Below are positions 1 to 58,999 of a stretch of DNA of 64,000 nt, piece after piece. Numbering within the stretch: position 1 is the first letter of the stretch; every line of letters starts with the position of its first letter. The notes beneath the pieces are model-generated. The model was not told the DNA's origin and searched no databases. It was given only the letters and a program-made list of their open reading frames with translations. The DNA is taken from positions 62,001 through 126,000 of the forward strand of contig NZ_NSKH01000023.1 in NCBI RefSeq assembly GCF_003144095.1, written 5' to 3'. This DNA comes from Streptomyces sp. ICBB 8177 (lineage in GTDB: Bacteria > Actinomycetota > Actinomycetes > Streptomycetales > Streptomycetaceae). The position numbers and the translations under genes were made by a program.

Positions 1-42
1 ACGATCAAGGCGGTCCTGGTGGCGACGCTCGCCGGTCGGTGA
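1..42 (+). CDS. 3' end of an unidentified CDS
   Basis: The first 42 bases read in one frame as 13 residues (TIKAVLVATLAGR) and a TGA stop. Composition is consistent with a gene entering from the left edge. Too little remains to name a product. It lies upstream of, and in the same direction as, the enoyl-CoA hydratase-like gene. Confidence 0.35.
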   Translation, partial: TIKAVLVATLAGR

Positions 43-100
43 GCGCTCGCGGCCGGGCGAGGGGCACCGTCCGGCGCGGCGAACCCGGATGTGTCGCCCT

Positions 101-129
101 CGTGACGCCGGTCACGATGCGGTGATAAC
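101..129 (+). promoter_or_regulatory. Candidate promoter with operator-like dyad upstream of the aromatic-CoA genes
   Basis: A perfect inverted repeat CGTGAC-GCCG-GTCACG lies at 101-116. A -10-like GATAAC follows at 124-129, about 50 bases before the ATG at 178, so the dyad would occupy the -35 area. Operator function is inferred; the PaaX-type protein encoded at 3968-4855 is the obvious local candidate to bind it. Confidence 0.35.
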
Positions 130-177
130 TTCGCAGGGCGGGCGACCGCCTCTCCGTCCTGCGAAGGAGGCCATGCC

Positions 178-1005
178 ATGAGTCCGATGCGAGGCTCCGC
201 GAGCACCACCGAGGAGTGGCGCCATCTGCGGCTGTCGCACGCGGACGGGGTCACCACGGTCACCCTCGACCGCCCGGACAAGCTCAACGCCCTCACCTTC
301 GGCGCCTACGCCGACCTGCGCGACCTGCTCCCCGAGCTGGCCCGCGACGGCCGCACCCGGGCCCTGGTCCTCGGCGGCGAGGGCCGCGGCTTCTGCTCCG
401 GCGGCGACGTCGACGAGATCATCGGCGCCACGCTGGACATGGGCGCCGGTGAGCTGCTGGAGTTCACCCGCATGACCGGGCAGGTGGTGCGCGCGCTGCG
501 GGAGTGCCCGTTCCCGGTGGTGGCCGCCATCCACGGCATCGCGGCGGGCGCGGGCTCGGTGCTGGCGCTGGCCTGCGACTTCCGGGTGGTCGAGCGCTCC
601 GCGCGGTTCGCGTTCCTGTTCACCCGCGTCGGGCTGTCCGGCGCCGACATGGGCGCCGCCTACCTGCTGCCGAGGGTCGTCGGCCTCGGCCACGCCACCC
701 GGCTGCTCATGCTGGGCGAGCCGGTCGGTTCCGAGGAGGCCCAACGCATCGGCCTGGTCAGCGAGTTGACCGAGGACGGCCGGGCGGGGGAGGCCGCCGC
801 CGCGCTCGCCGGACGGCTGGCGCAGGGCCCCGCACTCGCCTACGCGCAGACCAAGGCCCTGCTCACCGCCGAACTCGACATGCCGCTCGGCGCCGCCATC
901 GAGATGGACGCGGCGACCCAGGCCCTGCTGATGACCAGCGCGGACTACGCCGAGTTCCACGCCGCGTTCACCGGGAAACGGCCGCCGAAGTGGGAGGGGC
1001 GGTAG
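178..1005 (+). CDS. Enoyl-CoA hydratase/isomerase family protein
   Basis: 275-residue crotonase-fold protein. The oxyanion-hole segments are visible as FCSGGD (residues 72-77) and GIAAGAGS (120-127), followed by the family's LPRVVG helix. The two glutamates of a classical hydratase are not obvious: the usual GGGCE position reads GAGSV, and the second region carries an aspartate (GADMG, about 156-160). An isomerase or ring-opening role on a CoA ester is therefore as likely as simple hydration. The ATG at 178 has a GAAGGAGG ribosome site at 163-170. The next gene starts two bases after the stop, so the two are probably cotranscribed. Context points to the lower part of an aryl-CoA degradation pathway. 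Confidence 0.85.
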   Translation: MSPMRGSASTTEEWRHLRLSHADGVTTVTLDRPDKLNALTFGAYADLRDLLPELARDGRTRALVLGGEGRGFCSGGDVDEIIGATLDMGAGELLEFTRMTGQVVRALRECPFPVVAAIHGIAAGAGSVLALACDFRVVERSARFAFLFTRVGLSGADMGAAYLLPRVVGLGHATRLLMLGEPVGSEEAQRIGLVSELTEDGRAGEAAAALAGRLAQGPALAYAQTKALLTAELDMPLGAAIEMDAATQALLMTSADYAEFHAAFTGKRPPKWEGR

Positions 1006-1007
1006 CC

Positions 1008-3287
1008 GTGCCCGGGCCGCTGCGCGTCGCGGTCGTCGGCGCGGGCCCCGGCGGGCTGTACGCGGCGGCGCTGCTCAAACGGCTCGACCCGGCCCGTGAG
1101 ATCACCGTGTGGGAACGCAACCCGCCCGACGAGACCTTCGGCTTCGGCGTCGTGCTGTCCGACGAGACCCTCGGCGGCATCGAGCACGCCGACCCGGTGG
1201 TGTACGAGGCGCTGCGCGGCGAGTTCGTGCGCTGGGACGCCATCGACGTGGCGCACGCGGGCAGTGTGGTGCGCTCCGGCGGCCACGGCTTCGCGGCGCT
1301 GAGCAGGCACCGGCTGCTGGCGATCCTCCAGGACCGCTGCCGGGCCCTGGGCGTGCGGCTGAACTTCCGCCAGGAGGCGCCACCGGTAGGCGAGTTGTCG
1401 AAGTCGTACGACCTCGTGATCGCCGCGGACGGGGTGCGCAGCACCACCCGCGACGCGTACGCCGACGTCTTCCGTCCCCACCTGACCACCCACCGCTGCC
1501 GCTACATCTGGCTCGCGGCCGACTTCGCGCTCGACTCCTTCCGCTTCGAGACGGCGCGGACCGGGGCGGGCCTGATGCTCGCGCACGGCTACCCCTTCGG
1601 GGCGTCGCACAGCACGTTCATCGTGGAGATGCGCGAGGAGGTGTGGCGGCGCGCCGGGCTCGACCTGATGGACGAGGACGCCTCGATCGCCGCCTGCGAG
1701 AAGTACTTCGCGCCGCTGCTCGACGGCCACCGGCTGTCCGGCAACCGCTCGCGCTGGACGGCGTTCACCACCGTCGTCAACGACACCTGGCGGGCCGGGA
1801 ACGTCGTCCTGCTCGGCGACGCCGCCCACACCGCGCACTTCTCCATCGGCTCCGGCACCAAACTCGCCATGGAGGACGCCCTCGCGCTCGCCGCCACCGT
1901 GGCCGAACAGCAAGGCGTGGACGCCGCGTTGGCCGCGTACGAGCGGGAGCGCAGGCCGGTCGTCGCCAGCACGCAGCGCGCCGCCGCCGCGAGCCTGGAG
2001 TGGTTCGAGGAACTGGAGCAGTACGCGGGGCAGCCCAGGCGGCAGTTCGCCTTCAACCTCCTCACCCGCAGCCGCCGCGTCACCCACGACAACCTGCGCC
2101 TGCGCGATGCCGCCTTCACCGCCGCCGTGGAGGCCGACGCCGGTCTCCCGGAGGGCACCCCGCCGATGTTCACCCCCTTCACCCTGCGCGGCCTGACCCT
2201 GCGCAACCGCGTCGTGGTCTCCCCGATGGACATGTACTCGTCGGTGGACGGCACACCGGGCGACTTCCACCTCGTCCACCTCGGCGCCCGCGCGCTGGGC
2301 GGCGCGGGACTGGTGATGACCGAGATGGTCTGCGTCAGCGAACGCGGCCGGATCACTCCCGGCTGCGCGGGGCTGTACGCGGACGAGCACGAGCAGGCGT
2401 GGAAACGCGTCGTGGACTTCGTGCACGGCCGGTCGACCGCCGCGATCGGTCTGCAACTCGGCCACAGCGGACGCAAGGGCTCGACCCGCCTGATGTGGGA
2501 GGGCATCGACCAACCGCTGGCGGACGGCAACTGGCCGCTGGCCGCCGCCTCACCGCTGCCCTACCGGCCGGGCGTCAACCAGGTCCCGCACGAACTCGAC
2601 GCGCCCGGACTCGCCGCGATCCGCGAGGAGTTCGTCCGCGCGGCGGAACGCGGCGCCCGCGCGGGCTTCGACCTGCTCGAACTCCACTGCGCGCACGGCT
2701 ACCTGCTCAGCGGCTTCCTGTCCCCCCTGACCAACCGCCGCACCGACGCCTACGGCGGCGACCTCGCCGGCCGCCTGCGCTTCCCCCTCGAAGTCTTCGA
2801 CGCCGTACGGGAGGTGTGGCCCGGGGAGCGCCCGATGACGGTGCGGATCTCGGCCACCGACTGGGCGGAGGGCGGCACCACGGCCGACGACGCGGTGGAG
2901 ATCGCCCGCGCCTTCAGGGCCCACGGCGCGGACGCCATCGACGTCTCCACCGGCCAGGTCGTCCCCGACGAGCGCCCCGCGTTCGGCCGCTCCTACCAGA
3001 CCCCGTACGCCGACCGCATCCGCAACCGCCTGGGCGTCCCGGTCATCGCGGTGGGCGCGATCTCCAGCTGGGACGACGTCAACTCCCTGATCCTGGCGGG
3101 CAGAGCCGACCTGTGCGCACTGGCCCGCCCCCACCTGTACGACCCGAACTGGACCCTCCACGCGGCAGCCGACCAGGGGTACGAGGGCCCAGGAGCCCCC
3201 TGGCCCCTCCCGTACCAGGCGGGCAGCCGCAAGCCGCCGACGGGCCGAACGGACGGACCCAAGCCACGGCTGACGCTGCCGAGTTGA
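1008..3287 (+). CDS. Bifunctional aryl-CoA monooxygenase / OYE-type reductase (anthraniloyl-CoA monooxygenase or salicylyl-CoA 5-hydroxylase family)
   Basis: 759 residues in two fused enzymes. Residues 1 to about 380 are a class A FAD monooxygenase, with VVGAGPGGLYAA near residue 9 and the second FAD motif GDAAHTAH near 269. From about 386 an old-yellow-enzyme/NADH:flavin oxidoreductase TIM barrel begins (PMFTPFTLRGLTLRNR), with HCAHGYLLSGFLSP and a C-terminal AVGAIS segment. The same fusion is known in 2-aminobenzoyl-CoA monooxygenase/reductase of Azoarcus, which hydroxylates and then reduces the ring of anthraniloyl-CoA, and in proteins annotated salicylyl-CoA 5-hydroxylase. The RidA and aryl-CoA ligase genes nearby favour anthranilate. 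The GTG start at 1008 is two bases after the upstream stop, indicating translational coupling. Confidence 0.87.
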   Translation: MPGPLRVAVVGAGPGGLYAAALLKRLDPAREITVWERNPPDETFGFGVVLSDETLGGIEHADPVVYEALRGEFVRWDAIDVAHAGSVVRSGGHGFAALSRHRLLAILQDRCRALGVRLNFRQEAPPVGELSKSYDLVIAADGVRSTTRDAYADVFRPHLTTHRCRYIWLAADFALDSFRFETARTGAGLMLAHGYPFGASHSTFIVEMREEVWRRAGLDLMDEDASIAACEKYFAPLLDGHRLSGNRSRWTAFTTVVNDTWRAGNVVLLGDAAHTAHFSIGSGTKLAMEDALALAATVAEQQGVDAALAAYERERRPVVASTQRAAAASLEWFEELEQYAGQPRRQFAFNLLTRSRRVTHDNLRLRDAAFTAAVEADAGLPEGTPPMFTPFTLRGLTLRNRVVVSPMDMYSSVDGTPGDFHLVHLGARALGGAGLVMTEMVCVSERGRITPGCAGLYADEHEQAWKRVVDFVHGRSTAAIGLQLGHSGRKGSTRLMWEGIDQPLADGNWPLAAASPLPYRPGVNQVPHELDAPGLAAIREEFVRAAERGARAGFDLLELHCAHGYLLSGFLSPLTNRRTDAYGGDLAGRLRFPLEVFDAVREVWPGERPMTVRISATDWAEGGTTADDAVEIARAFRAHGADAIDVSTGQVVPDERPAFGRSYQTPYADRIRNRLGVPVIAVGAISSWDDVNSLILAGRADLCALARPHLYDPNWTLHAAADQGYEGPGAPWPLPYQAGSRKPPTGRTDGPKPRLTLPS

Positions 3288-3294
3288 AGGGCAG

Positions 3295-3852
3295 TTATTG
3301 GAAGACGGAGGTGTCCAGCGAGAAGTCGAACGGATCCGGCAGGTCCAGCGGCTTGCCGAAGGCGACGCGAACGTCCTCGATGTAGTCGCCGTCCTGCGGA
3401 TCGCTGAACAGCGTGACGGTGCCCTTGCCACGGTCGACGAGCAAGTAAAACGGAATGCCGCAGGCGGCGTAGCCACGCCGCTTGGTGCTGCGATCTTCCT
3501 GTGCGCGGGTCGAGGTGACCTCGATGGTCATCACGACTCCTTCCGGTCCGGACCAGGACTCGCGCCCCCGCAGCGCCCCTCTCGGCGCCACCGTGGCGTC
3601 CGGGATGAACCGGCCGAGTGGCGTGATCAGGCCCTTGTTGCCGGGCGCGTAGAGGTCGGCGGCCGAATTCCTGGCGATCTGCCATTGCAGGTTGCCGATG
3701 GCGTCCTCGTGGTCACCGTCAGGCGGCGGAGTCACGATGATCTCCCCCTCGATCAGTTCGGCGCGGTAGCCAGGGGGCACCGTCAGATCGAGGAAGCCAG
3801 CCAGCACAGCATCCTCCGCAGGGTGCGGGCGCTCGGCCGAGGGCATCGCCAT
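3295..3852 (-). CDS. Uma2 family (DUF820) putative restriction-endonuclease-fold protein
   Basis: 185 residues with the Uma2 pattern: an N-terminal helix, ELIEGEIIVTPPP, then PDATVAPRG and VVMTIEVTS ahead of a lysine-containing KRRGYAACGIPFYLLVD segment, forming the PD-(D/E)XK-like core. The family is abundant in streptomycetes and cyanobacteria and its function is unproven. I chose ATG 3852 because GAGGAGGT lies 7 bases upstream; ATGs at 3879 and 3876 precede that ribosome site. It converges on the catabolic operon with only 7 bases between stops. It has no evident link to aromatic degradation and may be an insertion into the cluster. Confidence 0.8.
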   Translation of the reverse strand: MAMPSAERPHPAEDAVLAGFLDLTVPPGYRAELIEGEIIVTPPPDGDHEDAIGNLQWQIARNSAADLYAPGNKGLITPLGRFIPDATVAPRGALRGRESWSGPEGVVMTIEVTSTRAQEDRSTKRRGYAACGIPFYLLVDRGKGTVTLFSDPQDGDYIEDVRVAFGKPLDLPDPFDFSLDTSVFQ

Positions 3853-3967
3853 CACGCATACCTCCTCGATCGTCATCATTCCGCTCCGATGTGGTCAGGA
3901 TAGGTCCCGGCCGTTGACCGGCGGGCGCACGTCCTGGAAACGATCACCCGGCGCGATGGTCACGCCA

Positions 3968-4855
3968 TCACGCCATCCGATGAACGTCCCGGACGAAGTC
4001 CGCTCCCGCCTCGCGCAAGCGGGTGTGCAGGGCGGTGAAGACCCGGGACGCCTCCGCGCCGGGCCAGTCCGCCGGGAGGAGGCGGGGCGGAAGGCCCGGG
4101 TCCGCGTAGGGGAGGCGGCGCCAGGAGTCCAGGACGCGCAGGTAGTCGCCGAAGGCCTCGCGCGGTGGGGTGTCCCGGCGGCGCGACCACGCGGCCAGCA
4201 GCGGTTCGGCGCAGGACAGGAACGCGCGGTGCTGCCGCGCGATGCCGTCCAGGTCCCACCACCGCCGCACCGCCCCCACCGTCGGCTCGAAGCCCAGGTG
4301 CGCGCCGCGGAACAGGTCGACGTAGGGCGAAAGACCGAGGCGGTCCAGCGTGTGCCGGGCCTCCTCGTACAGGTGCGCCGGCGCGATCCACACCCCCGGC
4401 GCCGCCGTGCCGAAGCCGAGCCGGGCCAGGCGCGAGCGCAGCAGGTGCCGCTTGTGGCGTTCGGACTCCGGCACGGAGAAGACCACCAGCACCCACGCGT
4501 CCTCCGGCTCGGGATGCCCGTAGACGCGCCGGTCGCCGTCGGCCAGCAGTTCCGCCGCGTCGCGGGACAGCGCGTACGCCGCCGACCCCGCGACCTTCTC
4601 CGGCACCAGCAGCCCGCGCCGCTTCAGCCGCGAGACCGCCGACCGCACCGACGGCGCGCCCGCCCCCGCCGCGTCCATCAGCCGGATCAGCGAGGCGACC
4701 GCGATCCGCCCGCCCCCGCCGTCCCGCTCGCGGCCGTACGCGCCGAAGTAGGTCAGGATCAGCGACCCCGGGGTGTGCGCGGCCTCGGCGATACCCGCGC
4801 CCGCGACCCCGGTGTCTTCCCGTGCGTTCACGGCGTCTGCGTTCACGGCGTCCAC
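3968..4855 (-). CDS. PaaX family transcriptional regulator
   Basis: 295 residues. An N-terminal winged-helix region (SLILTYFGAYGRE to SAVSRLKRRGLLV, about 30-85) is followed by the PaaX central and C-terminal domains (WVLVVFSVPESERHKRHLLRSRLARLGFG is the diagnostic stretch, about 120-148). PaaX proteins repress aryl-CoA catabolic genes and are released by the CoA thioester. It lies 23 bases downstream of the aryl-CoA ligase gene on the same strand, so the two probably share a transcript. The first residues contain a perfect DAVNA-DAVNA duplication caused by a 15-bp tandem repeat, so the true start may be slightly downstream. The ligand is probably the CoA ester made by the neighbouring ligase. 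Confidence 0.85.
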   Translation of the reverse strand: MDAVNADAVNAREDTGVAGAGIAEAAHTPGSLILTYFGAYGRERDGGGGRIAVASLIRLMDAAGAGAPSVRSAVSRLKRRGLLVPEKVAGSAAYALSRDAAELLADGDRRVYGHPEPEDAWVLVVFSVPESERHKRHLLRSRLARLGFGTAAPGVWIAPAHLYEEARHTLDRLGLSPYVDLFRGAHLGFEPTVGAVRRWWDLDGIARQHRAFLSCAEPLLAAWSRRRDTPPREAFGDYLRVLDSWRRLPYADPGLPPRLLPADWPGAEASRVFTALHTRLREAGADFVRDVHRMA

Positions 4856-4878
4856 GCGCTCACTCTAGGCAGTCCGCC

Positions 4879-6558
4879 TCACCCGCCCGCGCCCGGCTCC
4901 CGCAGGCGGAAGCGCTGCACCTTCCCCGTCGGGGTGCGCGGCAGCGCGTCGGTGAACACGATCTCGCGCGGGCACTTGTACGGCACGATCTCGCCCTTGG
5001 TGAACTCCCGCAGCGCCGCCGCCGTCGCCTCGCCGCCCGGCACGCCGTCGCGCAGGACCACGAACGCCCGGGCGATCTGGCCGCGTTCGGCGTCCGGCAC
5101 GCCGACCACCGCCGCCTCCCGCACGTCCGGGTGGCGCAGCAGCGCCTCTTCCACCTCCGGGGCCGCGATGTTGTACCCGGCGGAGATGATCATGTCGTCG
5201 GCCCGGGCGACGTAGGTGAAGTAGCCGTCCGCGTCGCGCACATACGTGTCGCCGGTGAGGTTCCAGCCGTCGCGCACGTAGTCGCGCTGGCGCTCGTCGG
5301 CCAGGTAGCGGCAGCCGGTCGGGCCGCGCACCGCCAGCAGCCCCGGCTCGCCGTCCGGCACCGGCTCCATGGTCGCGCCGTCGACGACCCGCGCCTCGTA
5401 GCCGGGGACGGCGACGCCGGTCGTGCCCGGGCGTATCGCGTCGTCGGCCGCCGAGATGAAGATGTGCAGCATCTCGGTGGCGCCGATGCCGTTGACGATG
5501 CTCAGCCCGGTCCGCTGGCGCCAGGCGTGCCAGGTGGCGGCGGGCAGGTTCTCCCCGGCCGACACGCAGCGCCGCAGCGAGGCGACGTCGTACGCGCCCG
5601 GCTCGGCCTCCAGCTTCGCCAGCATCGCCCGGTACGCGGTCGGTGCGGTGAACACCACGCTCACCCGGTGTCGCCCGATCGCCGCCAGGAGTTGCTCGGG
5701 GTGGGCGTCCTCCAGCAGCAGCGAGGAGGCGCCGGCGCGCAGCGGGAAGACCACGAGCCCGCCCAGGCCGAAGGTGAAGCCCAGCGGCGGGGTCCCGGCG
5801 AAGACGTCGTCGGCCCGCGGGCGCAGCACCCGCGCCGAGAAGGTGTCGGCGATCACCAGCAGATCGCGGTGGAAGTGCGTGCAGCCCTTCGGCCGGCCGG
5901 TCGTGCCCGAGGTGAAGGCGATCAGCGCGACGTCGTCCGCCGAGGTCTCCACCGCCTCGTAGCGGTCCGGCCGCCCGGCCGCGAGGCTGAGCAGGTCCGT
6001 CGCCGACTCGCCCCCGTACGCGGTCACCCGCAGCCCGGGCACCCGCGCCTTCACCAGGTCGTCGAGCGCCCGCACGTCGCACAGCGCGTGCCGCACCCGC
6101 GCGATGTCGCAGATCACCGCCAGTTCGTGCGGACGCTGCGCCGCCAGCACGGTCACCGCGACCGCGCCCGCCTTCAGCACCGCGAACCAGCAGGCCACCA
6201 GCCACGGCGTGGTCGGCCCGCGCAGCAGCACCCGGTTGCCCGGCACCACCCCGAGGTCGTCGGTGAGCACGTGCGCGATGCGGTCGGAGGCGGCCCGCAG
6301 TTCGTCGTACGACCACACCTCGCCGCCCGGCATCCGCAGGCACGGGCGGTCGGGCCCGAGCCGCCGCGCGGTGGCGTCCAGCAGCTCGACGGCGCAGTTG
6401 AGCCGGTCCGGGTAGCGCAGCCCGGCCGCTTCCAGGGGCAGGTCGGGCCACTGGTCGCGGGGCGGCAGGTGGTCGCGGGGAAAGGTGTCCAGGTGCGCGG
6501 AGGGCAGCAGCGGCGGACAGCGAGGCGGACTGTGCGGCGGGTCAGGCAACAGGTCCAT
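4879..6558 (-). CDS. Aryl-CoA ligase (2-aminobenzoate/benzoate-CoA ligase-like)
   Basis: 559-residue acyl-adenylate-forming enzyme. It carries the P-loop TSGTTGRPKG at 216-225, the core GIGATEM and TGDTYVRDADGYF motifs, and the C-terminal catalytic lysine in PTGKVQR (K546). Family members activate an aromatic acid with ATP and then form the CoA thioester. The closest functional class by motifs and context is benzoate/2-aminobenzoate-CoA ligase. It is transcribed with the paaX-type gene, divergently from the acyl-CoA dehydrogenase gene. It would supply the substrate of the monooxygenase/reductase. Substrate identity is inferred from neighbours only. Confidence 0.85.
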   Translation of the reverse strand: MDLLPDPPHSPPRCPPLLPSAHLDTFPRDHLPPRDQWPDLPLEAAGLRYPDRLNCAVELLDATARRLGPDRPCLRMPGGEVWSYDELRAASDRIAHVLTDDLGVVPGNRVLLRGPTTPWLVACWFAVLKAGAVAVTVLAAQRPHELAVICDIARVRHALCDVRALDDLVKARVPGLRVTAYGGESATDLLSLAAGRPDRYEAVETSADDVALIAFTSGTTGRPKGCTHFHRDLLVIADTFSARVLRPRADDVFAGTPPLGFTFGLGGLVVFPLRAGASSLLLEDAHPEQLLAAIGRHRVSVVFTAPTAYRAMLAKLEAEPGAYDVASLRRCVSAGENLPAATWHAWRQRTGLSIVNGIGATEMLHIFISAADDAIRPGTTGVAVPGYEARVVDGATMEPVPDGEPGLLAVRGPTGCRYLADERQRDYVRDGWNLTGDTYVRDADGYFTYVARADDMIISAGYNIAAPEVEEALLRHPDVREAAVVGVPDAERGQIARAFVVLRDGVPGGEATAAALREFTKGEIVPYKCPREIVFTDALPRTPTGKVQRFRLREPGAGG

Positions 6559-6634
6559 GGCGGGTGCGCCCCTTTGCGCCGGGCCGAGAGGGTGGCGGTG
6601 AGCGGTTTTTCCGGCCGTGCGAATGCGAAATCAG

Positions 6635-6652
6635 CGTAACGTGATGGTGACG
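6635..6652. promoter_or_regulatory. Operator-like imperfect dyad in the ligase/dehydrogenase divergent region
   Basis: CGTAAC-GTGATG-GTGACG forms a CGTnAC(6)GTnACG dyad in the 251-base region between the divergent ligase and acyl-CoA dehydrogenase genes. It shares the CGTnAC half-site with the dyad at 101-116, but the spacers differ (6 against 4). Binding by the local PaaX protein is a guess. Confidence 0.3.
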
Positions 6653-6809
6653 ACAGTCAACAGGCCGCGATACGGAGGATGGCGCGCGGACGCCCGGGGA
6701 AGTAAGGCAACCGGGCCCCAGGGCCGACCGACCGCCCTCGGCCGGGAACCTCCCCAGCGGCCGGGAAGCCCCCGGGCGGCCGGGGAACCGCCAAGCGAAG
6801 GAGACCGCA

Positions 6810-7931
6810 GTGCCGGGATTCGCGCTCGATCCGGAGCAGCAGATGTGGTGCGAACGCGTGCGCGGTCAGGCCGCGCACCGGCTGCGCCCGATCGCGGAGA
6901 AGGGCGAGCCGGGCCGGGTCAATCGGCCGCTGCTGGCCGAGCTCGGCCGCCTCGGCCTGCTGGACCGCCTCTTCCCGCACCAGGGCAGGCCGTCCGCCAC
7001 CGAACTGTGCCTGCTGCGCGAGTCGCTGGCCCGCGAGTGCACCGAGGCCGAGACCGCGCTCGCGTTGCAGGGTCTGGGCGGCCATCCGCTGCTGCGCTCG
7101 CCGAAGCTCGCCGCTCGCTGGCTGCCCGGGATCACGACGGGCGGCGTCGTGGCCGCGTTCGCGCTCACCGAGCCGGACGCCGGATCGGACGCGGCGGCGC
7201 TCTCCCTGCGGGCCGAACCCGCCCCGGACGGCGACGGCTGGCGGCTGACCGGCACCAAGTGCTGGATCTCCAACGCTCCCGAGGCCGACCTCTACACCGT
7301 CTTCGCCCGCACCACCCCGGGCGCGGGCTCGCGCGGCGTCACCGCCTTCGCCGTCCCCGCCGACCGCCCGGGCCTGACCGGCGAGCGCCTGGAGATGCTC
7401 TCCCCGCACCCCATCGGCCGCCTCGACTTCGACGCCGTGCCGGTCGGCCGCGAGGACGTGCTGGGGGAGGTCGACCACGGCTTCCGCGTCGCGATGAGCA
7501 CGCTCAACCTCTTCCGCCCCAGCGTCGGCGCGTTCGCCGTCGGGATGGCGCAGGCCGCGCTGGAGGCGGCCGTCGCCCACGCGGGCAGCCGCAGCGCCTT
7601 CGGCGGACCGCTCAAGGACCTCCAGTCGGTCGGCCACACGCTCGCCGAGATGGCCACCCGCACCGAGGCGGCCCGGCTTCTGGTGCTGGCCGCGGCGCGG
7701 GCGTACGACACCGGCGCGCCGGACATCGCCAAGCGCTCCGCCATGGCCAAGCTGTTCGCCACCGAGACCGCGCAGTACGTCGTCGACGCCGCCGTCCAAC
7801 TGCACGGCGCCCGCGCGCTGGAACGCGGTCACCTGCTGGAACACCTCTACCGCGAGGTGCGCGCACCGCGCGTCTACGAGGGCGCGACCGAGGTCCAGCG
7901 CAGCATCATCGCGAAGGAGTTGTACCGGTGA
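6810..7931 (+). CDS. Acyl-CoA dehydrogenase family protein
   Basis: 373 residues with the standard FAD acyl-CoA dehydrogenase layout: N-terminal helical domain, FALTEPDAGSDAA near residues 111-123, the beta-barrel motif GTKCWISNAP, and the C-terminal YEGATEVQRSIIAKELY containing the likely catalytic glutamate. GTG start with AAGGAGA about 10 bases upstream. The stop overlaps the GTG of the RidA gene (GTGA). In this context it would oxidise an alicyclic or ring-opened CoA intermediate in a beta-oxidation-like sequence. Confidence 0.87.
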   Translation: MPGFALDPEQQMWCERVRGQAAHRLRPIAEKGEPGRVNRPLLAELGRLGLLDRLFPHQGRPSATELCLLRESLARECTEAETALALQGLGGHPLLRSPKLAARWLPGITTGGVVAAFALTEPDAGSDAAALSLRAEPAPDGDGWRLTGTKCWISNAPEADLYTVFARTTPGAGSRGVTAFAVPADRPGLTGERLEMLSPHPIGRLDFDAVPVGREDVLGEVDHGFRVAMSTLNLFRPSVGAFAVGMAQAALEAAVAHAGSRSAFGGPLKDLQSVGHTLAEMATRTEAARLLVLAAARAYDTGAPDIAKRSAMAKLFATETAQYVVDAAVQLHGARALERGHLLEHLYREVRAPRVYEGATEVQRSIIAKELYR

Positions 7932-8326
7932 GCCTGGAACGCCTCAACCCGCCCGCGCTGTCCCCGGCGACCGGCTTCAGCCACGCGGTCACCGCGACGG
8001 GAGGCCGCCTGGTCTTCCTCGCCGGCCAGACCGCGCTGGACAGCGCGGGCCGCGTCGTCGGCACCACGCTCCCCGAGCAGTTCGAACGCGCCCTGCGCAA
8101 CCTCCTGGACGCCCTGACCGCGGCAGGCGGCACCCCCGCCGACCTGGCCCGCGTCACCGTCTACGCGAAGGACGTAGCCGCCTACCGAGCCGGTGCCCGC
8201 GAACTCGGCGCCGTCTGGCGGAAGTTGGCAGGCCGCGACTACCCGGCGATGGCGGTGGTGGGAGTGGTGCGGTTGTGGGACGAGGAGGCACTGGTCGAAC
8301 TGGACGGGATCGCGGTGGTGGAGTGA
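7928..8326 (+). CDS. RidA (YjgF/YER057c/UK114) family enamine/imine deaminase
   Basis: 132 residues with the RidA fold. GRLVFLAGQTALDSAGRVVG, then LRNLLDALTAAGGTPADLARVTVY, and a late AVVGVVRLWDEEALVELDGIAV make up the trimeric barrel. Canonical RidA carries an arginine before its 'vevd' strand that binds the substrate carboxylate; here the nearby residue is R in VVRLW. RidA proteins hydrolyse reactive enamines/imines to ketone and ammonia. It is coupled to the acyl-CoA dehydrogenase by a 4-base overlap. A deaminase is expected for an amino-substituted ring product, which favours an anthranilate rather than a salicylate substrate for this cluster. Confidence 0.82.
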   Translation: MSLERLNPPALSPATGFSHAVTATGGRLVFLAGQTALDSAGRVVGTTLPEQFERALRNLLDALTAAGGTPADLARVTVYAKDVAAYRAGARELGAVWRKLAGRDYPAMAVVGVVRLWDEEALVELDGIAVVE

Positions 8327-8339
8327 ACCGGACACGCGG

Positions 8340-8380
8340 CAGGGGAGCGGTGCGGGCAGGCTCCCGCGCCGACTCCCCTG
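8340..8380 (+). terminator. Hairpin terminator after the RidA gene
   Basis: A long stem of CAGGGGAG (8340-8347) with CTCCCCTG (8373-8380), continued inward by CGGTGCGGG against CCCGCGCCG around a CAGGCT loop. There is no U-tract, as is usual in streptomycetes. It lies between convergent genes and could serve both. Confidence 0.55.
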
Positions 8381-8404
8381 ACATGATGAGGATCTGTCGG
8401 CGCC

Positions 8405-9934
8405 TCAGATGTCCCGGAACGTCTCGATCTGGGCTCCGATCGAGTTGAGGCGTTCCGCCAGCTCCTCGTAACCGCGGTTGATGACGTAGACGTTGCGCAG
8501 GACCGACGTGCCCTCGGCGGCCAGCATGGCCAGCAGGACGACGACCGCGGGGCGCAGGGCCGGCGGGCACATCATCTCCGCGGAGCGCCAGCGGGTCGGG
8601 CCCTCGACCAGCACCCGGTGCGGGTCGAGCAGCTTGACGCCCGCGCCGAGGCGGGTCAGTTCGGTCAGGTAGATCGCGCGGTTGTCGTAGACCCAGTCGT
8701 GGATCAGCGTCGAGCCCTGCGCGGTCGCCGCGATGGCCGCGAAGAACGGCACGTTGTCGATGTTCAGGCCGGGGAACGGCATCGGGTGGATCTTGTCCAG
8801 CGGCGCGCGCAGTTTCGACGGGCGCACCGTCAGGTCGATCAGCCGGGTGCGGCCGTTGTCGGCCGGGTACTCCGCGCTGCGCTCGTGGTCGAGGCCCATC
8901 TCCTCCAGCACCGCGAGCTCGATCTCCAGGAACTCGATCGGCACCCGGCGCACCGTCAGCTCCGAGGAGGTCACCACCGCGGCGGCGATCAGGCTCATCG
9001 CCTCCACCGGGTCCTCGGACGGCGAGTAGTCCACGTCGCAGTCGATGCTCGCCAGGCCGTGCACGGTCAGCGTCGTGGTGCCGATGCCGTCGACCCGCAC
9101 GCCCAACTGCTCAAGGAAGAAGCACAGGTCCTGCACCATGTAGTTGGAGCTGGCGTTGCGGATCACGCTCACCCCGGGGTGGCGGGCGGCGGCCAGCAGC
9201 GCGTTCTCGGTCACCGTGTCGCCGCGCTCGGTCAGCACGATCGGGCGGCGCGGGGCGAAGGAGCGGTCGACCTCGGCGTGGTACGAGCCGGTGGTGGCGG
9301 TGACTTCGAGCCCGAAGTGGCGCAGCGCCGCCATGTGCGGGTGCACGGTGCGGGTGCCCAGGTCGCAGCCGCCCGCGTAGGGGATGCGGAAGCGGTTGGT
9401 GCGGTGCATCAACGGGCCGAGGAACATGATGACGCTGCGGGTGCGGCGCGCCGCCTCGGTGTCCATCGCGTCCAGGTCCAGCTGGGCGGGCGGCACGATC
9501 TCCAGGTCGTTGCCGTCGTTGATCCAACGGGTGCGCACGCCGATGGAGTTGAGGACCTCCAGGATGCGGAAGACCTCTTCGATGCGGGCGACCCGGCGCA
9601 GCGTGGTGCGCCCGGCGTTGAGCAGCGACGCGCACAGCAGGGCCACGCAGGCGTTCTTGCTCGTCTTGACGTCGATCGAACCGGACAGGCTGCGGCCGCC
9701 GACGACGCGCAGGTGCATGGGGCCGGCGTAGCCGAGGGAGACGATCTCGCTGTCGAGGGCTTCCCCGATGCGGGCGATCATCTCAAGGCTGATGTTCTGG
9801 TTGCCCCGCTCGATGCGGTTGACGGCACTCTGGCTGGTCCCCAGAGCCTCTGCGAGCTGCGACTGCGTCCAACCACGGTGTTGCCGGGCGTCACGGATGA
9901 GCTTGCCGATGCGTACGAGGTAGTCGTCTGCCAT
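8405..9934 (-). CDS. murA2: MurA paralogue (UDP-GlcNAc 1-carboxyvinyltransferase family) with N-terminal XRE-type HTH
   Basis: 509 residues, about 75 longer than ordinary MurA. Residues 5-63 form a helix-turn-helix of the XRE/Cro type (GWTQSQLAEALGTSQSAVNR). An EPSP-synthase/MurA fold follows from about 73. MurA active-site residues are kept: the Lys-Asn pair (K93, N94) and a Cys in GGCDLGTRTVHPH (C190), equivalent to the fosfomycin-target Cys115 of E. coli. The protein may therefore still use PEP and UDP-GlcNAc, or sense them. Actinobacteria have another, conventional murA. It is divergent from acnA. A palindrome at 9946-9961 overlaps the leader and could be an autoregulatory site for the HTH. 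No clear Shine-Dalgarno precedes the ATG. Confidence 0.85.
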   Translation of the reverse strand: MADDYLVRIGKLIRDARQHRGWTQSQLAEALGTSQSAVNRIERGNQNISLEMIARIGEALDSEIVSLGYAGPMHLRVVGGRSLSGSIDVKTSKNACVALLCASLLNAGRTTLRRVARIEEVFRILEVLNSIGVRTRWINDGNDLEIVPPAQLDLDAMDTEAARRTRSVIMFLGPLMHRTNRFRIPYAGGCDLGTRTVHPHMAALRHFGLEVTATTGSYHAEVDRSFAPRRPIVLTERGDTVTENALLAAARHPGVSVIRNASSNYMVQDLCFFLEQLGVRVDGIGTTTLTVHGLASIDCDVDYSPSEDPVEAMSLIAAAVVTSSELTVRRVPIEFLEIELAVLEEMGLDHERSAEYPADNGRTRLIDLTVRPSKLRAPLDKIHPMPFPGLNIDNVPFFAAIAATAQGSTLIHDWVYDNRAIYLTELTRLGAGVKLLDPHRVLVEGPTRWRSAEMMCPPALRPAVVVLLAMLAAEGTSVLRNVYVINRGYEELAERLNSIGAQIETFRDI

Positions 9935-9945
9935 GGCGACAGGCT

Positions 9946-9961
9946 ATCTCAGATATGAGAT
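9946..9961. promoter_or_regulatory. Dyad ATCTCA-N4-TGAGAT just upstream of murA2
   Basis: ATCTCAGATATGAGAT has perfect 6-base arms around a 4-base centre. It sits 12-27 bases upstream of the murA2 start, where a repressor would block expression. The arms match those of the 16-base dyad at 10095-10110 at 5 of 6 positions. Candidate ligands are the HTH of MurA2 itself or a MarR-type regulator. Confidence 0.5.
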
Positions 9962-10094
9962 GTGTCCGACTTGGGGCGCGTTCAGTACGGCCATTCCGGT
10001 GAGAGGGGTGCGCCTCACGCCGGCCCCGCCGCATCGGCGTGAGGCAGCCCACCGGGGACGAGGCATGACCGACCGGCGGTGATGTACTAGAGTT

Positions 10095-10110
10095 ATCTCG
10101 ACATCGAGAT
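10095..10110. promoter_or_regulatory. Perfect dyad ATCTCGA-CA-TCGAGAT upstream of aconitase
   Basis: Seven-base perfect arms with a 2-base centre, extendable by one pair to 10094-10111. This is the geometry of a MarR-family operator. In S. coelicolor a MarR protein (TamR) is reported to control aconitase, so this may be its site; I am inferring that from position and symmetry. Confidence 0.55.
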
Positions 10111-10142
10111 ATCTACTCAGGGGCGTACCGCTGTCGCGCCAG

Positions 10143-10161
10143 TAAGGTGACCCTAACTTAG
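10143..10161. promoter_or_regulatory. Iron-box-like site (DmdR/IdeR type) upstream of acnA
   Basis: TAAGGTGACCCTAACTTAG matches the DtxR/IdeR consensus TTAGGTTAGSCTAACCTAA at 14 of 19 positions, including the central SCTAAC. A further TTAGGT...ACCTTAG half-dyad overlaps its right side (to 10172). It lies about 80 bases before the acnA start. Iron control of an Fe-S enzyme is plausible but unproven here. Confidence 0.45.
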
Positions 10162-10172
10162 GTACACCTTAG

Positions 10173-12962
<2,790 letters not shown>

Positions 12963-54552: not shown

Positions 54553-56094
54553 CTACGGATGCGCGTTCGGCGGATCACCGTCGCGTGACGACACCGCGAC
54601 CGTATGTACCGAACCGTCCTGGCTCAACTCGACGATCGGTATCGCCTTGTTCCTCGGGCCGCCCCCGGAGTCCAGCGAGATCAGCCCGCTCGCCCCCGAC
54701 ACCGCCCTCGCCCCGTACAGCAGCGTCGTCATCTGGACCACGTCGGCGCCGGTCACCGTGTCCGCGGCGGTGCCTCCGGAGGACGCGTTGCGGATCGCGG
54801 TGACGGCGGTCAGCGTCGCGTCGTACCCCATGATCGCCTGCCCGTCGTCCAGTGCCTCGCGGGGGAACGCGGTGCGGAACTCGCCGCCGGGCTGGAACGG
54901 CGCGATCGCGGTGGCGTCGAAGGACTGCGGGCGCAGCGTCCAGGCGCCCGGGTGGGCGAGTCCGGTGTACAGCAGCCTGATGTCGCCCAGCCGCAGCGCG
55001 TCCTTGACCTGGCCGACCCCGGCGGACTGCCCGACCTGCGAGGCGTCGTCGCCGGAGACCACGGTCAGCGGCTTGTCGGCGCATTGCCGGTGCGACAGCG
55101 GCGCGAGGAAGCGCGGCAGGTCGATGCCCCGGCCGGCGAAGTACACCACGTCGGGCGCGTCCAGGCACACGTTGGCCATCTGCTGGGTGAAGTACGTCGA
55201 GACGTCCGACTTCGACGAGTCGTACGCCATCGGCTGGTCGACCAGCAGTCCGGCCGGATAGCTCTTGCGGAACGAGGTGGCGAGCGTCGAGGTGTACAGG
55301 TCGTCCGACCGGGTGTCCTCGACCAGCAGCACCTTCGCCTTCGGCGCCGTCCTCAGCAGGTACTTCGCCGCCGCGGCCGCCTCGTCGGAGTTGGAGGGCG
55401 CGACGCGCACCAGGCCGGGGATGCCGATCAGGTCGTCGGAGGTGATGACCGAACCGAACGCGGCGAGGTCCTGCCGGGTCAGCTGCTCGATGCTGGAACG
55501 CGTCGCCAGCGTGCTGGTGCCCAGGCCCGCCACCGCGACGACATGGTCGGCGGTGCGGTAGCGGCTGATCTGCGCGAGGGTGTAGTCGCGCTGCGCGGTG
55601 GTGGCGCCGGTGTGCGCGAGCAGCAGCACGATCTGCGGCGAATCGCCTTGCGCGTCGGTGTGATTGGCCTCCCACTGCGCGGTGTAGGCGCCCTCCAGCT
55701 CGTGCCGGATCGAGTCGGTGGTGTTGGTGCTGCCCGGGCCCTGCACCATCGACATCAGGTACACCACCCCGACCCACGGCGCGCCGCCCGGCTTGGCCGC
55801 CGCCGCCCGCACCCGGTCGTTCTCCGTGTGGATCAGGCCGAACAACGAGGCCAGGTCGGGGGAGTACGCGTAGGAGCCGTCCGTCAGCCCCACGCAGGCG
55901 TGGTCCGGGCCCACCTTCGCGACGCCGTCGGCGCACCGCGTGCTCGCCGGACGCACCAGCGAGTAGACGCCGGTGCCCAGCGCGACCAGGGCGACCACCA
56001 GCGCCAGCACTCCCAGCCGCCCCCGCCACCACGGGCGCGGCGGGTCCCAGGTGCCGTCGGAACCGGGGGAACGTGCCGGTGAGCGGGAGAACAC
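54553..56094 (-). CDS. Membrane-anchored periplasmic-binding-protein type 1-like receptor
   Basis: 513 residues. An N-terminal cytoplasmic tail of about 26 residues and one membrane helix (LGVLALVVALVALGTGVYSLV, 27-47), with no lipobox, tether a large extracytoplasmic domain. That domain resembles branched-chain-amino-acid or receptor-type ligand-binding proteins: VVYLMSMVQGPGSTNT, VVAVAGLGTST, LLVEDTRSDDLYTSTLATSF, DVVYFAGRGIDLPRFLAPL, IMGYDATLTAVTAIRNAS. No transporter permease is nearby. The GTG at 56094 has TAGGAGGTCGATC upstream. It follows the P-loop NTPase gene by 61 bases on the same strand. Together they look like a sensing pair: the receptor outside, the ATPase inside. Ligand unknown. 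Confidence 0.7.
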   Translation of the reverse strand: MFSRSPARSPGSDGTWDPPRPWWRGRLGVLALVVALVALGTGVYSLVRPASTRCADGVAKVGPDHACVGLTDGSYAYSPDLASLFGLIHTENDRVRAAAAKPGGAPWVGVVYLMSMVQGPGSTNTTDSIRHELEGAYTAQWEANHTDAQGDSPQIVLLLAHTGATTAQRDYTLAQISRYRTADHVVAVAGLGTSTLATRSSIEQLTRQDLAAFGSVITSDDLIGIPGLVRVAPSNSDEAAAAAKYLLRTAPKAKVLLVEDTRSDDLYTSTLATSFRKSYPAGLLVDQPMAYDSSKSDVSTYFTQQMANVCLDAPDVVYFAGRGIDLPRFLAPLSHRQCADKPLTVVSGDDASQVGQSAGVGQVKDALRLGDIRLLYTGLAHPGAWTLRPQSFDATAIAPFQPGGEFRTAFPREALDDGQAIMGYDATLTAVTAIRNASSGGTAADTVTGADVVQMTTLLYGARAVSGASGLISLDSGGGPRNKAIPIVELSQDGSVHTVAVSSRDGDPPNAHP

Positions 56095-56155
56095 GATCGA
56101 CCTCCTACGGAACGGGACACCGCACGCCGCCACAGCCCGGCGGCGCCACGCGTCC

Positions 56156-58252
56156 TCACGTCGAACGCGCCTCGTAGCGGGCGGCCTCCGACCGCAGCAC
56201 GGCGCTGTTGGCGTCGGCGTGCAGGGCCAGGTCGCGCAGCGAGGCGCTGATGGTGAAGTTCAGCTCGGGGCGGGCACTGGGCAGCCGGTTGCGCGGATCG
56301 ACCGCCAGCCACAACGCGGTCACCAGCAGCGCCAGGGAGCGGTGCTTGCCGTACGCCTCGGGCGCCAGGTCGCGGGCGAGCCGGTCGGCGCGGTGCGAGG
56401 CGGGCTCCGACAGCACGACCGGGTCGCGCATCGGCGCCGCGGTGACCGCGTACAGCTCGTACAGCCACGCCTCGGTCGGCAGCCCGCCCAGCGAGACGCG
56501 CAGCGCCGTCACCACCTCGTCCACCCTGCCCAGCGCCAACATGTGGTGCGGTACGGCGAGTTCGTGGCCCGCGCGGTCCGCGTGCCAGGCCCGCATCCGC
56601 TCGTGCGCGGTGTCCCAGTCCGGGTGCGGCCCGCCCCCCTCGCGGGCGGCCAGCTCCCGGGTCAGCAGCAGGCGCAGCCACGGTTGCAGCACGTGGGACT
56701 CGGGCAGCCGCCTCGGGTGCGCCGCCGGGCCGTCCGCGGGCAGGTAGCCGGAGCCGCGCCCGCCACGGGTGCCCGCGTCCTCCGACAGCGGCGGCACCAT
56801 CCACAGCCGCTCGGCGGTGTCCTCCAGCAGCGTCTCGCGCAGCCGGGGAGAAAACCCCTCCAGCAGACCGGAGTTGACGGCCGACTCCATGTCCCGGGCC
56901 GCCGCGCACGTCACCAGGCCCGCCAGCTGCTCGGCGTCCATGCCCTGCGTCAGGTACCGCAACGCCTCCTGGCCCAGCGTCGGCGGCGCCGGCGAGCCGC
57001 CCGCGCCGCCCGGGTCGCGCACCAGCGGACCGGAGTCGAGGATGCCGCGCAGCCGCTCCTGGGCGTCCGGCCGCTCCAGCAGCCGGGCCGCCGCCCGCTG
57101 CGTGCGCAGCACGCTCCACGGATGCCCGTACGTCAGCCGGTGCACCAGCGGCGTCGCCTCCGGCAGCCTCGGCGCGATCGCCGCCCCGAGCTGCGAGACC
57201 TGACCGGCCGTCAGGTCCGGCAGTTGCACGGCGTACCACCACCAGGACGCGTCCGCGGGCGAGGCGGGCACCGCGTCGTGCCAGTCGTCGTACGACGCCC
57301 GCTCGCCCCGGCTGATCCGCAGCCCCGCCGGTCCCGGGTCGAACGGGCCCGGCACCGCGCGGGCCGTCGAGGACGTGGCGACCACCAGCAGCGGATCGCA
57401 CCCGCCGTCCGGCGCCGCCCGCATCAGCGCCTCGCGCAGCTCCAGCAGCAGACTGAGGAAACGGGTGCCGTCACCGCGGTCGATGTTGTCCAGCACCACC
57501 AGGCAGTTGCGGTCCCGGCCCAGGCCCGGCCGCCCCGCGTAGGCCGCCCGCAGGTCGGCGAGGAACGCCTCGCACAGCAGCCGGTCCACCCGCTCGGCGT
57601 CGGCCGGATCCTCGCTGCGGCTGCGCTCGTTGAGGGCCACCAGCGCGGCCAGCGGCTCCGACGGGCTGCCCTCGCCGTACCACTCGACGCCGGAGCGCGA
57701 CACCGTCGACAACAACCTCGGCCCGATGCCGCGCAGCAGCAGCGAGGCGAGCAGCCCGGCGCCCGGCACCGGGATCACCCCGATGTCGTTGAGCAGCCCG
57801 ACGACCTCCGACAGCGCGTCCGCCGCGGGCCCCGCGGCACGCTTGCGGGCCGAGCGCATCGCCTTGGCCAACTGGTGCTTGGCGTGCTCGGGGTTGTTGG
57901 CGTCCAGCCGCAACTCCGGGTCGACGGCGACCAGTCCGTGGGTGAGGCGGGGGAAGTGCAGGGGCCGCTGGTGCGGAGCCTTGAGCGACAGGCGGAACGC
58001 CAGCCGCGCAGCGACCTCGTGCGGGCGCAGCGTCGCGGCGGCGAAGTCGTGGCCGGCCGTGGGCGCGGTGGACGCGCGGTGCGCGAGGTGTTCCAGTGCG
58101 GCGGTCTTGCCGCTGCCGTGCCGCCCCAGCAGCACGACGACCGGCAACGGGCGGTCCGCCCGCCGCGTCCCCTGCCGGGCGCGCACCCAGCAGTCGCGGA
58201 CCAGCGTCTCGACGGCCTCCAGGCCGAGCGGACGGACGGGCACGTCGGGCAC
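56156..58252 (-). CDS. Large P-loop NTPase (KAP/STAND-like)
   Basis: 698 residues. Walker A reads GRHGSGKT (43-50) and Walker B LVVLDNID (251-258), with a long insert between them. The insert includes a hydrophobic stretch at about 147-174 (GLLNDIGVIPVPGAGLLASLLL) that could dip into the membrane, as in KAP-family NTPases. The C-terminal 400 residues are helical and carry no domain I recognise (HPWSVLRTQRAAARLLERPDAQ, EQLAGLVTCAAARDMESA). GTG 58252 follows GAAGGGGG by 9 bases; upstream frame to 58303 lacks a site. Its gene order with the ligand-binding-like membrane protein suggests a two-gene signalling or defence-like unit. Confidence 0.65.
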   Translation of the reverse strand: MPDVPVRPLGLEAVETLVRDCWVRARQGTRRADRPLPVVVLLGRHGSGKTAALEHLAHRASTAPTAGHDFAAATLRPHEVAARLAFRLSLKAPHQRPLHFPRLTHGLVAVDPELRLDANNPEHAKHQLAKAMRSARKRAAGPAADALSEVVGLLNDIGVIPVPGAGLLASLLLRGIGPRLLSTVSRSGVEWYGEGSPSEPLAALVALNERSRSEDPADAERVDRLLCEAFLADLRAAYAGRPGLGRDRNCLVVLDNIDRGDGTRFLSLLLELREALMRAAPDGGCDPLLVVATSSTARAVPGPFDPGPAGLRISRGERASYDDWHDAVPASPADASWWWYAVQLPDLTAGQVSQLGAAIAPRLPEATPLVHRLTYGHPWSVLRTQRAAARLLERPDAQERLRGILDSGPLVRDPGGAGGSPAPPTLGQEALRYLTQGMDAEQLAGLVTCAAARDMESAVNSGLLEGFSPRLRETLLEDTAERLWMVPPLSEDAGTRGGRGSGYLPADGPAAHPRRLPESHVLQPWLRLLLTRELAAREGGGPHPDWDTAHERMRAWHADRAGHELAVPHHMLALGRVDEVVTALRVSLGGLPTEAWLYELYAVTAAPMRDPVVLSEPASHRADRLARDLAPEAYGKHRSLALLVTALWLAVDPRNRLPSARPELNFTISASLRDLALHADANSAVLRSEAARYEARST

Positions 58253-58432
58253 AGTGCTGGTCCCCCTTCGCAGCAACGTGATCGCGCCGACCCATCGTGG
58301 CACGGATTCCTTTACCCGGTACAGGAGTTGGCTTTACGCGGTAAGGGAGCCGAACGCTCCGCCTTCGGCCCCTCGGCTGGGGCGGCCGGTGGCAACTGGA
58401 CACCCCGGGCCCCGCCCCGGAGAATCCGTAGC

Positions 58433-58999
58433 GTGAGGTCATACGAGTTCCAGACGCGCTCCGGCCGGCCGTCGGACGCCGAGCGGGACCGGGCCGTCGA
58501 GGTGCTCAAGGAGAACGCGGTCCGCGGCAGGCTGTCCCACGACACCTTCCTGCGCCGCATGGAACTCGCGCTCGCCGCCGAGGACCGCGAGGCGCTCGGC
58601 GCGCTCACCGCCGACCTGCCCTCCGGCGGCCGTCTGAGCCGCTGGACGCTCGGCGTGGTCGGCGCCTGCTCGGCGTTCGGCGTGCGGGTGCGCAGGGCCT
58701 GGCGGGTCGAGCGGCTGCCGAGGCTGATGCTGCCCGAGCCCGGCCCGCGCCCGTTGCGCATAGGCCGCGACTACGCGTCGGGCCTGCGCGTCCACGACGA
58801 CTCCGTCTCCCGGGTGCACGCGGAACTGGCCTGCGAGGGCGGCGTGTGGATCCTGCGCGACCTGGGCTCGATGAACGGCACGTGGGTCAACGGGCGGCGG
58901 GTGATGGGCGCGACGACGGTGCGCCCGGGAGACGTCGTCACCTTCGGCGCGGTCGGCTACCGCCTGGCGGCCGAGCCCCCGGGAAGCCTGCCCGCGTGA
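58433..58999 (+). CDS. DUF1707-FHA domain protein
   Basis: 188 residues. An N-terminal DUF1707 (SDAERDRAVEVLKENAVRGRLSHDTFLRRMELAL, about 13-48) is joined by a short linker to an FHA domain (about 105-180) with the phosphothreonine-binding pattern RIGRDYASG, SRVHAEL and RDLGSMNGTWVNGRRV. FHA domains bind phosphothreonine peptides made by Ser/Thr kinases such as those of the Pkn family. GTG 58433 has CCGGAGAATCCGTAGC upstream. Divergent from the P-loop NTPase; it may report kinase signalling to that unit. Confidence 0.85.
   Translation: MRSYEFQTRSGRPSDAERDRAVEVLKENAVRGRLSHDTFLRRMELALAAEDREALGALTADLPSGGRLSRWTLGVVGACSAFGVRVRRAWRVERLPRLMLPEPGPRPLRIGRDYASGLRVHDDSVSRVHAELACEGGVWILRDLGSMNGTWVNGRRVMGATTVRPGDVVTFGAVGYRLAAEPPGSLPA

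Follow-up and report, generated by a model that had tools for sequence, protein, structure and literature searches.

A conserved actinobacterial pairing of a STAND-like NTPase with a flytrap-type membrane receptor: a candidate outside-in switch

Bacterial STAND NTPases are known for the most part as sensors of intracellular molecules. The gene pair described here encodes an NTPase that shares with members of this class (the MalT/AfsR, NACHT and NB-ARC types) a Walker A motif, a Walker B motif followed by a polar residue, an invariant GxP motif and a winged-helix-like pattern. It differs from them in having neither an N-terminal effector domain nor a long sensor repeat, in adjoining, or being fused to, a membrane flytrap receptor, and in falling below the Pfam cut-offs. 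The receptor, for its part, shares its fold and the Ser/Thr/Tyr positions of its putative pocket with the ectodomains of LIVBP, AmiC, class C GPCRs and ionotropic glutamate receptors. LivJ, however, has Tyr202 where the receptor has an invariant arginine, and the receptor also stands apart from this fold class in being anchored in the membrane and in having an NTPase as its partner.

Two described systems come close to this arrangement. In the TM+PBP variant of the EACC1 systems, an extracellular PBP, preceded by a TM helix, is joined to conflict modules (Kaur et al. 2020, PMC7159879). Like our pair, these systems are mainly actinobacterial and consist of two genes, and the EAD1 domain that occurs in them is also found in receptor fusions reported below. 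The EACC1 system differs in combining EACC1 with a caspase-type gene, whereas eight window proteins scanned gave no Pfam match to EACC1, caspase or cyclase, and the section of that paper on EACC1 contains no STAND–PBP pair. The second is GlnH–GlnX–PknG, for which it has been proposed that PknG is controlled, by way of a membrane protein, by an actinobacterial aspartate-binding protein (PMC6069109). Both this system and the pair have a solute-binding fold outside the cell and a cytosolic signalling enzyme, and both are found in actinobacteria. The output of GlnH–GlnX–PknG is a kinase, and it uses a lipoprotein and a membrane protein that are separate, whereas in the pair flytrap and anchor form a single protein that is partnered with an NTPase. 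Within the literature in reach, mainly open-access papers, we found no description of the NTPase–receptor pair.

The window is a stretch of 64,000 nucleotides from Streptomyces sp. ICBB 8177, and the features of the locus are collected in Table 1. The sequence-only reading had proposed a co-directional pair of NTPase and receptor genes; both genes were confirmed on the minus strand, the receptor gene lying directly downstream. Each is single-copy in its own genome, apart from one partial NTPase match of 35 residues. On the comparisons that follow, we regard the NTPase and the receptor as a real, single module. Our preferred reading, to which we give a probability of about two in three, is that they form a two-protein, ligand-gated, outside-in switch in which a separate membrane receptor would act as the sensor of a STAND NTPase.

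Table 1. Coordinates, in the window, of the gene pair, its motifs and the neighbouring gene
Feature	Position	Strand	Basis
Receptor, single-pass extracytoplasmic Venus-flytrap (LIVBP / class-C GPCR-like), 513 aa	54553..56094	-	start, TM, fold, profile matches
Receptor transmembrane segment, ~residues 29-50	55945..56010	-	hydrophobicity
Putative ligand pocket, receptor	55129..55515	-	conservation + LivJ/mGluR alignments
Ser194, putative pocket	55513-55515	-	conservation; alignment
Thr218, putative pocket	55441-55443	-	conservation; alignment
Tyr267, putative pocket	55294-55296	-	conservation; alignment
Arg322, putative pocket	55129-55131	-	conservation; alignment
STAND-type NTPase (probable), 715 aa	56156..58303	-	motifs, family scans
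Walker A GRHGSGKT, NTPase residues 60-67	58103..58126	-	sequence
Walker B LVVLDNID, NTPase residues 268-275	57479..57502	-	sequence
GxP motif GHP, NTPase residues 393-395	57119..57127	-	sequence
Winged-helix-like + helical C-terminal region, NTPase residues 538-625	56429..56692	-	sequence pattern
DUF1707-FHA gene, 188 aa, neighbour only	58433..58999	+	FHA 1.4e-18, DUF1707 4.7e-15

The NTPase had been read as carrying a KAP-like insert between Walker A and Walker B. The position and length of the insert stand, with about 200 residues separating the two motifs, but kinship with KAP does not, and STAND features are found instead. No KAP family match was obtained for the window NTPase at E ≤ 0.1, nor among 31 members at E ≤ 0.01, and across 43 split NTPases (those encoded apart from the receptor) the highest 19-residue Kyte–Doolittle mean is 1.76, so that none has a segment of transmembrane grade. 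KAP membership was rejected because neither TM-grade segments between Walker A and B nor a KAP family match were found in these scans. We assign the NTPase to the STAND type with moderate confidence, on motifs and family scans. The glycine and proline of the GxP motif (G393 and P395) are invariant in 43/43 split NTPases, and the Walker B aspartate is present in 60 of the 61 split rows, the exception being a fragment (L154). The Walker-A lysine is kept in 50 of these rows; in the other 11 it is replaced by Arg (four), Ala (six, one of which is the L154 fragment) or Gly (one). The hhGRE(xE) motif, searched with a loose pattern in which GRS is allowed as well, is seen in 14/43 NTPases and is absent from the window NTPase, which has RPLGLEAVE. 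The sequence pattern of the C-terminal region resembles the winged helix of MalT-type STANDs and may also fit the superstructure-forming repeats that follow the NTPase in this class. The window protein scores below the Pfam cut-offs for nSTAND_NTPase5 (19.7 bits; cut-off 34), NACHT (13.7; 26.7) and AAA_16 (24.9; 32.6), while at E ≤ 0.01 the 31 members match AAA_16 (21/31), nSTAND5 (7/31) and NACHT (2/31). The structure model of the NTPase was poor (pLDDT 48.6), and a search with it gave no match at E ≤ 0.001. The window NTPase is 96% identical to that of Streptantibioticus parmotrematis (L009).

For the receptor, the listed ORF start at 56133 is probably too far upstream; the GTG at 56094 is preferred since it is preceded by AGGAGG. 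In the protein a single, N-terminal segment is strongly hydrophobic, and a lipobox pattern is found in 0/43 receptors, which bears out the original description of a single-pass protein without a lipobox. In these 43 receptors the most hydrophobic window is preceded by 13–31 residues (median 21), with a median net charge of +3, and we infer that the N-tail of the window receptor, some 28 residues, is cytosolic. Conservation of Cys54 (84/102 receptors) and Cys67 (100/103) fits a disulphide and not a lipid anchor. Single-sequence searches found no relatives of known structure. A model of the receptor (pLDDT 68, pTM 0.71, from an alignment of six sequences) matches LivJ 4gnr with a VIA-align Z of 28.6 (3.4 Å over 335 residues) and 3td9 with a Z of 28.4, and in the structure search it also matches AmiC and glutamate-receptor ectodomains. 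At the sequence level, a profile built from 31 receptors picks up LivK (E 1.4e-6), mGluR5 (9e-5) and LivJ (1.4e-4). Pfam at E ≤ 0.01 finds ANF_receptor in 10/31 and Peripla_BP_6 in 8/31, with none in the window receptor. The ectodomain is thus modelled as a two-lobe, type I periplasmic-binding fold.

The putative pocket is conserved across all receptor forms, whether split, fused or joined to other parts. Arg322 is invariant (103/103), Ser194 is kept in 96 of 104 receptors, position 218 is Thr in 79 and Ser in 24 of 104, and position 267 is Tyr in 91 and Phe in 12 of 103. In the LivJ alignment Thr218, Tyr267 and Arg322 correspond to Thr102, Tyr150 and Tyr202, and Ser194 aligns within the GSSS stretch of mGluR5. 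The equivalents of these positions bind ligand in LivJ and mGluR. We infer from the sequence alignments that all receptor forms may recognise a common class of amino-acid-like ligand.

The pairing itself is well conserved. A single-sequence search matched 64 of the 297 genomes of the family. Of these, 41, including the source genome, were followed and 23 were set aside as having short matches only. Since one of the latter (G047) carries the pair by profile search, 41/297 is a lower bound. In all 42 loci examined (L009–L013 and L023–L059, L013 coming from outside the family-search list) the receptor gene lies directly 3′ of the NTPase gene on the same strand, down to about 25% identity, with gaps of −17 to +186 bp as reckoned from gene starts picked by script. 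When 345 genomes of the class were searched with profiles (E ≤ 0.001), the NTPase was matched in 112 genomes, many of these matches covering the P-loop only, and the receptor in 78. Part of these matches, a non-random choice, gave 60 further loci, 17 of which have the split pair (L157, L158, L160–L168 and L170–L175). The pairs in L160–L168 belong to other families of the same class, so the conservation that had been put forward as a check extends beyond close relatives. As exceptions that weigh against the module reading, one of the 60 has an NTPase without a receptor (L156), and four have receptors without an adjacent NTPase (L122–L124 and L126). In L158, one NTPase gene is followed by two tandem receptor genes (8019-11509). 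In a search of the phylum, 23 of 246 genomes match the receptor, and the 16 that lie outside the class have weak (best 9.1e-7) and partial matches. Plasmid records with matches number one for the NTPase and four for the receptor, and phage records searched with the NTPase gave no match.

The two proteins also appear to have diverged together: the mirror-tree correlation over 43 pairs is 0.908, a value reached in 0/2000 permutations, part of it being due to shared ancestry. Simple counting gives dN/dS values against L009 of 0.136 for the NTPase and 0.259 for the receptor, and of 0.39–0.52 against L010, L043 and L047. When 1238 script-called genes from 103 stretches were clustered in search of a third conserved partner, the largest clusters besides the pair (23 and 15 loci) looked from their sequences like members of common families, namely GAF/PAS regulators and ABC ATPases, and most other clusters track local synteny. 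No third partner gene emerged from this non-exhaustive clustering.

In other loci the two modules are joined. The NTPase core and the receptor form one transmembrane chain in 21 of the 60 further loci, and in L154 such a chain is interrupted by a stop. Among the 49 ORFs in which the receptor is preceded by over 200 residues, 21 matched an iterated profile built from the NTPase core, as against 0/245 shuffled sequences; 11 of the 49 long ORFs are open frames that merely overlap a split NTPase gene. These fusions mean that in some species the two modules are a single polypeptide. The Walker-A lysine is missing from 21 of 22 fused rows. The one that keeps it (L169) has the P-loop, LLLLDDID, RGHPLAV and HPLLRDLL together with the receptor in one chain, so that its Walker A, Walker B, GxP and HPLLR motifs are all intact. 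As the lysine is lost from 11/61 split and 21/22 fused rows, hydrolysis is not needed everywhere, and the fused NTPase core seems, from its sequence, able to work without normal hydrolysis. Six of the split NTPases without this lysine (L036–L040 and L058) still keep their receptor.

These losses bear on a different view of the NTPase, that it is an NTP-powered machine for membrane remodelling or transport, with the receptor serving as a substrate adaptor and no switch involved. A P-loop NTPase with a long helical insert would suit such a machine, as would the hydrophobic hairpins that can be read in the sequence of the N-terminal part of some fusions. However, loss of the lysine from some split and nearly all fused forms argues against it, and the invariant GxP and winged-helix-like pattern fit STAND switches; we consider it unlikely.

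The receptor is joined to other cytosolic parts as well. Its ectodomain is found with TIR and a Ser/Thr kinase in L120 and L121, and with DUF4062 in L142. In L159 there are two tandem EAD1–TM–receptor proteins (4937-10070), with EAD1 E-values of 4.9e-05, just under the cut-off, and 9.3e-08. Receptors with other or unrecognised long N-terminal parts occur in 11 of the 60 further loci.

A receptor with the LIVBP fold could simply be an ordinary ABC-type solute-binding protein whose permease is encoded at a distance, the NTPase being a chance neighbour. The source genome does contain seven matches to PF02653 (LivH/M-type permease), the nearest about 33 kb from the pair, and a match lies within 10 kb in two of 40 pair genomes, among the matches listed. 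These are G219 (L041), with a distance of about 2.5 kb between match and receptor, and G187 (L048), with about 6.4 kb; in both the match is on the strand opposite to the pair. The original claim that there is no transport partner therefore holds for this genome but not without exception among related genomes. Against a transport role, the other 38 pair genomes have no PF02653 within 10 kb among the matches listed. Ten co-directional neighbours of pairs proved, in a Pfam scan, to be ten different kinds of gene; no LivH/M permease or ABC ATPase was among them, and the transporters of other types were a sulfate permease (L046) and an MFS protein (L033). Taken with the 42/42 pairing, the fusions to the NTPase core, kinase and TIR, and the membrane-helix anchor without a lipobox in all 43 receptors, this leaves the solute-binding explanation very improbable.

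The NTPase gene is flanked on its other side by a divergent DUF1707-FHA gene, as first described. Its inclusion in the system, in contrast, did not survive comparison. The gene occurs in 82 of 121 family genomes (E ≤ 1e-20) but lies near the pair in only two of the 42 loci (L009 and L043), as far as the fetched stretches, some of them short, extend. In other pair genomes, for example G078, G063 and G109, it is far off. Moreover, at six sites it stands beside treZ without the pair (L193, L194, L195, L197, L200 and L201), with 178–246 bp between the FHA and treZ match ends; in L196 and L199 the two are separated by 1.2 and 1.6 kb and another gene. The FHA gene was rejected as a component of the module on its wide occurrence apart from the pair and on these six empty sites. 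One genome (G075) has both an empty site (L200) and the pair elsewhere (L171). The empty sites and this genome indicate that the FHA–treZ site has gained or lost the pair as a two-gene cassette. In another genus of the family, a decayed remnant of the pair lies directly beside DUF1707-FHA (L198, 3091-3667).

This patchy distribution enters into the question of what the switch would be for, where two narrower versions of it are about as likely as each other. In the first, resembling GlnH–GlnX–PknG, the pair would sense nutrients and the NTPase would tune metabolism or development, with no role in conflict. The amino-acid-type putative pocket, the proposed actinobacterial precedent of an aspartate-binding protein acting on PknG (PMC6069109) and the dN/dS values against L009, which at this short range give no indication of an arms race, are in its favour. 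Patchy presence (at least 41/297 family genomes), the empty sites and decayed remnant, and the TIR, DUF4062 and EAD1 partners elsewhere all fit it poorly, and we hold it as a serious possibility at less than even odds. In the second version, an extracellular danger signal, perhaps a competitor product, cell-wall fragment or lysis product, would set off a STAND-triggered defence or cell death. The same patchiness and empty sites then count in favour, as do the TIR, EAD1 and kinase partners and the occurrence of TM+PBP in a published caspase-based conflict system (the EACC1 section of PMC7159879). So does L029, where the receptor gene is immediately followed, in the same orientation, by JetA of Wadjet (PADLOC E 3.9e-185). 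On the other hand, neither the window NTPase nor the receptor has an effector domain recognised by Pfam. The best PADLOC match of the window pair is 0.067, the JetA at L029 is the sole strong match among 20 neighbours (four others are weak, E 5e-08 to 9e-12), and the PADLOC matches of L120 fall on its kinase domain. A conflict role must for these reasons be put forward tentatively. The sequence-only reading had also called the system conflict-type; what supports this comes from the fusion partners of other receptors and the Wadjet neighbour, and not from the window pair itself.

At L029 the two ORFs after JetA read, by sequence, like JetB and JetC, such that the receptor–NTPase pair (1-5188) lies directly upstream of a Wadjet-like operon (5280-8990) on the same strand. 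An HSP90 gene lies upstream of the NTPase there.

Whichever role applies, the proposed outside-in signalling is supported by the conserved pairing, the single-chain fusions, the swapped cytosolic parts and the lack of an adjacent permease at this locus. From the anatomy of the two proteins and from the fusions, a chain of events can be suggested for the ligand-gated switch. The flytrap would close on an alpha-amino-acid-like ligand, one group of which would pair with Arg322; the receptor chains would then associate differently, and the membrane helix and N-tail would relay this change to the cytosolic NTPase. The nucleotide bound by the latter would determine whether it is closed or in an open, assembling state. 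Where ordinary STANDs carry a long C-terminal sensor, this NTPase lacks one, and the separate membrane receptor would serve instead. In our view the output is likelier to be a recruited partner or regulatory than direct killing. If this is correct, the pair would connect an extracellular small molecule directly with the STAND class of switches, and the conserved putative pocket makes the question of the ligand experimentally approachable. Kinase, TIR and EAD modules occur with the same receptor family, so identifying one ligand would offer a way into several uncharacterised actinobacterial systems.

A broader and rather doubtful extension is that one flytrap family serves actinobacteria as a general point of entry through which outside signals reach immune or cell-fate circuits. 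A shared, amino-acid-like class of signal would be received by a receptor plugged into interchangeable cytosolic modules, namely active adjacent STANDs, dead fused STAND cores, TIR-kinases, DUF4062 and EAD1. Such an arrangement would be the bacterial equivalent of signalling by receptor-gated inflammasomes or class C GPCRs.

Two further observations concern receptors in other settings. In L176 (6297-13512), the receptor has an N-terminal part that is possibly HTH-like, with no Pfam support; two genes away, a 944-aa protein is encoded whose sequence resembles a STAND of the MalT/LuxR type. The receptor-bearing proteins of one family (f17; L125, L128–L134, L141 and L177–L179) occur in a shared neighbourhood, with one gene cluster common to 13 loci.
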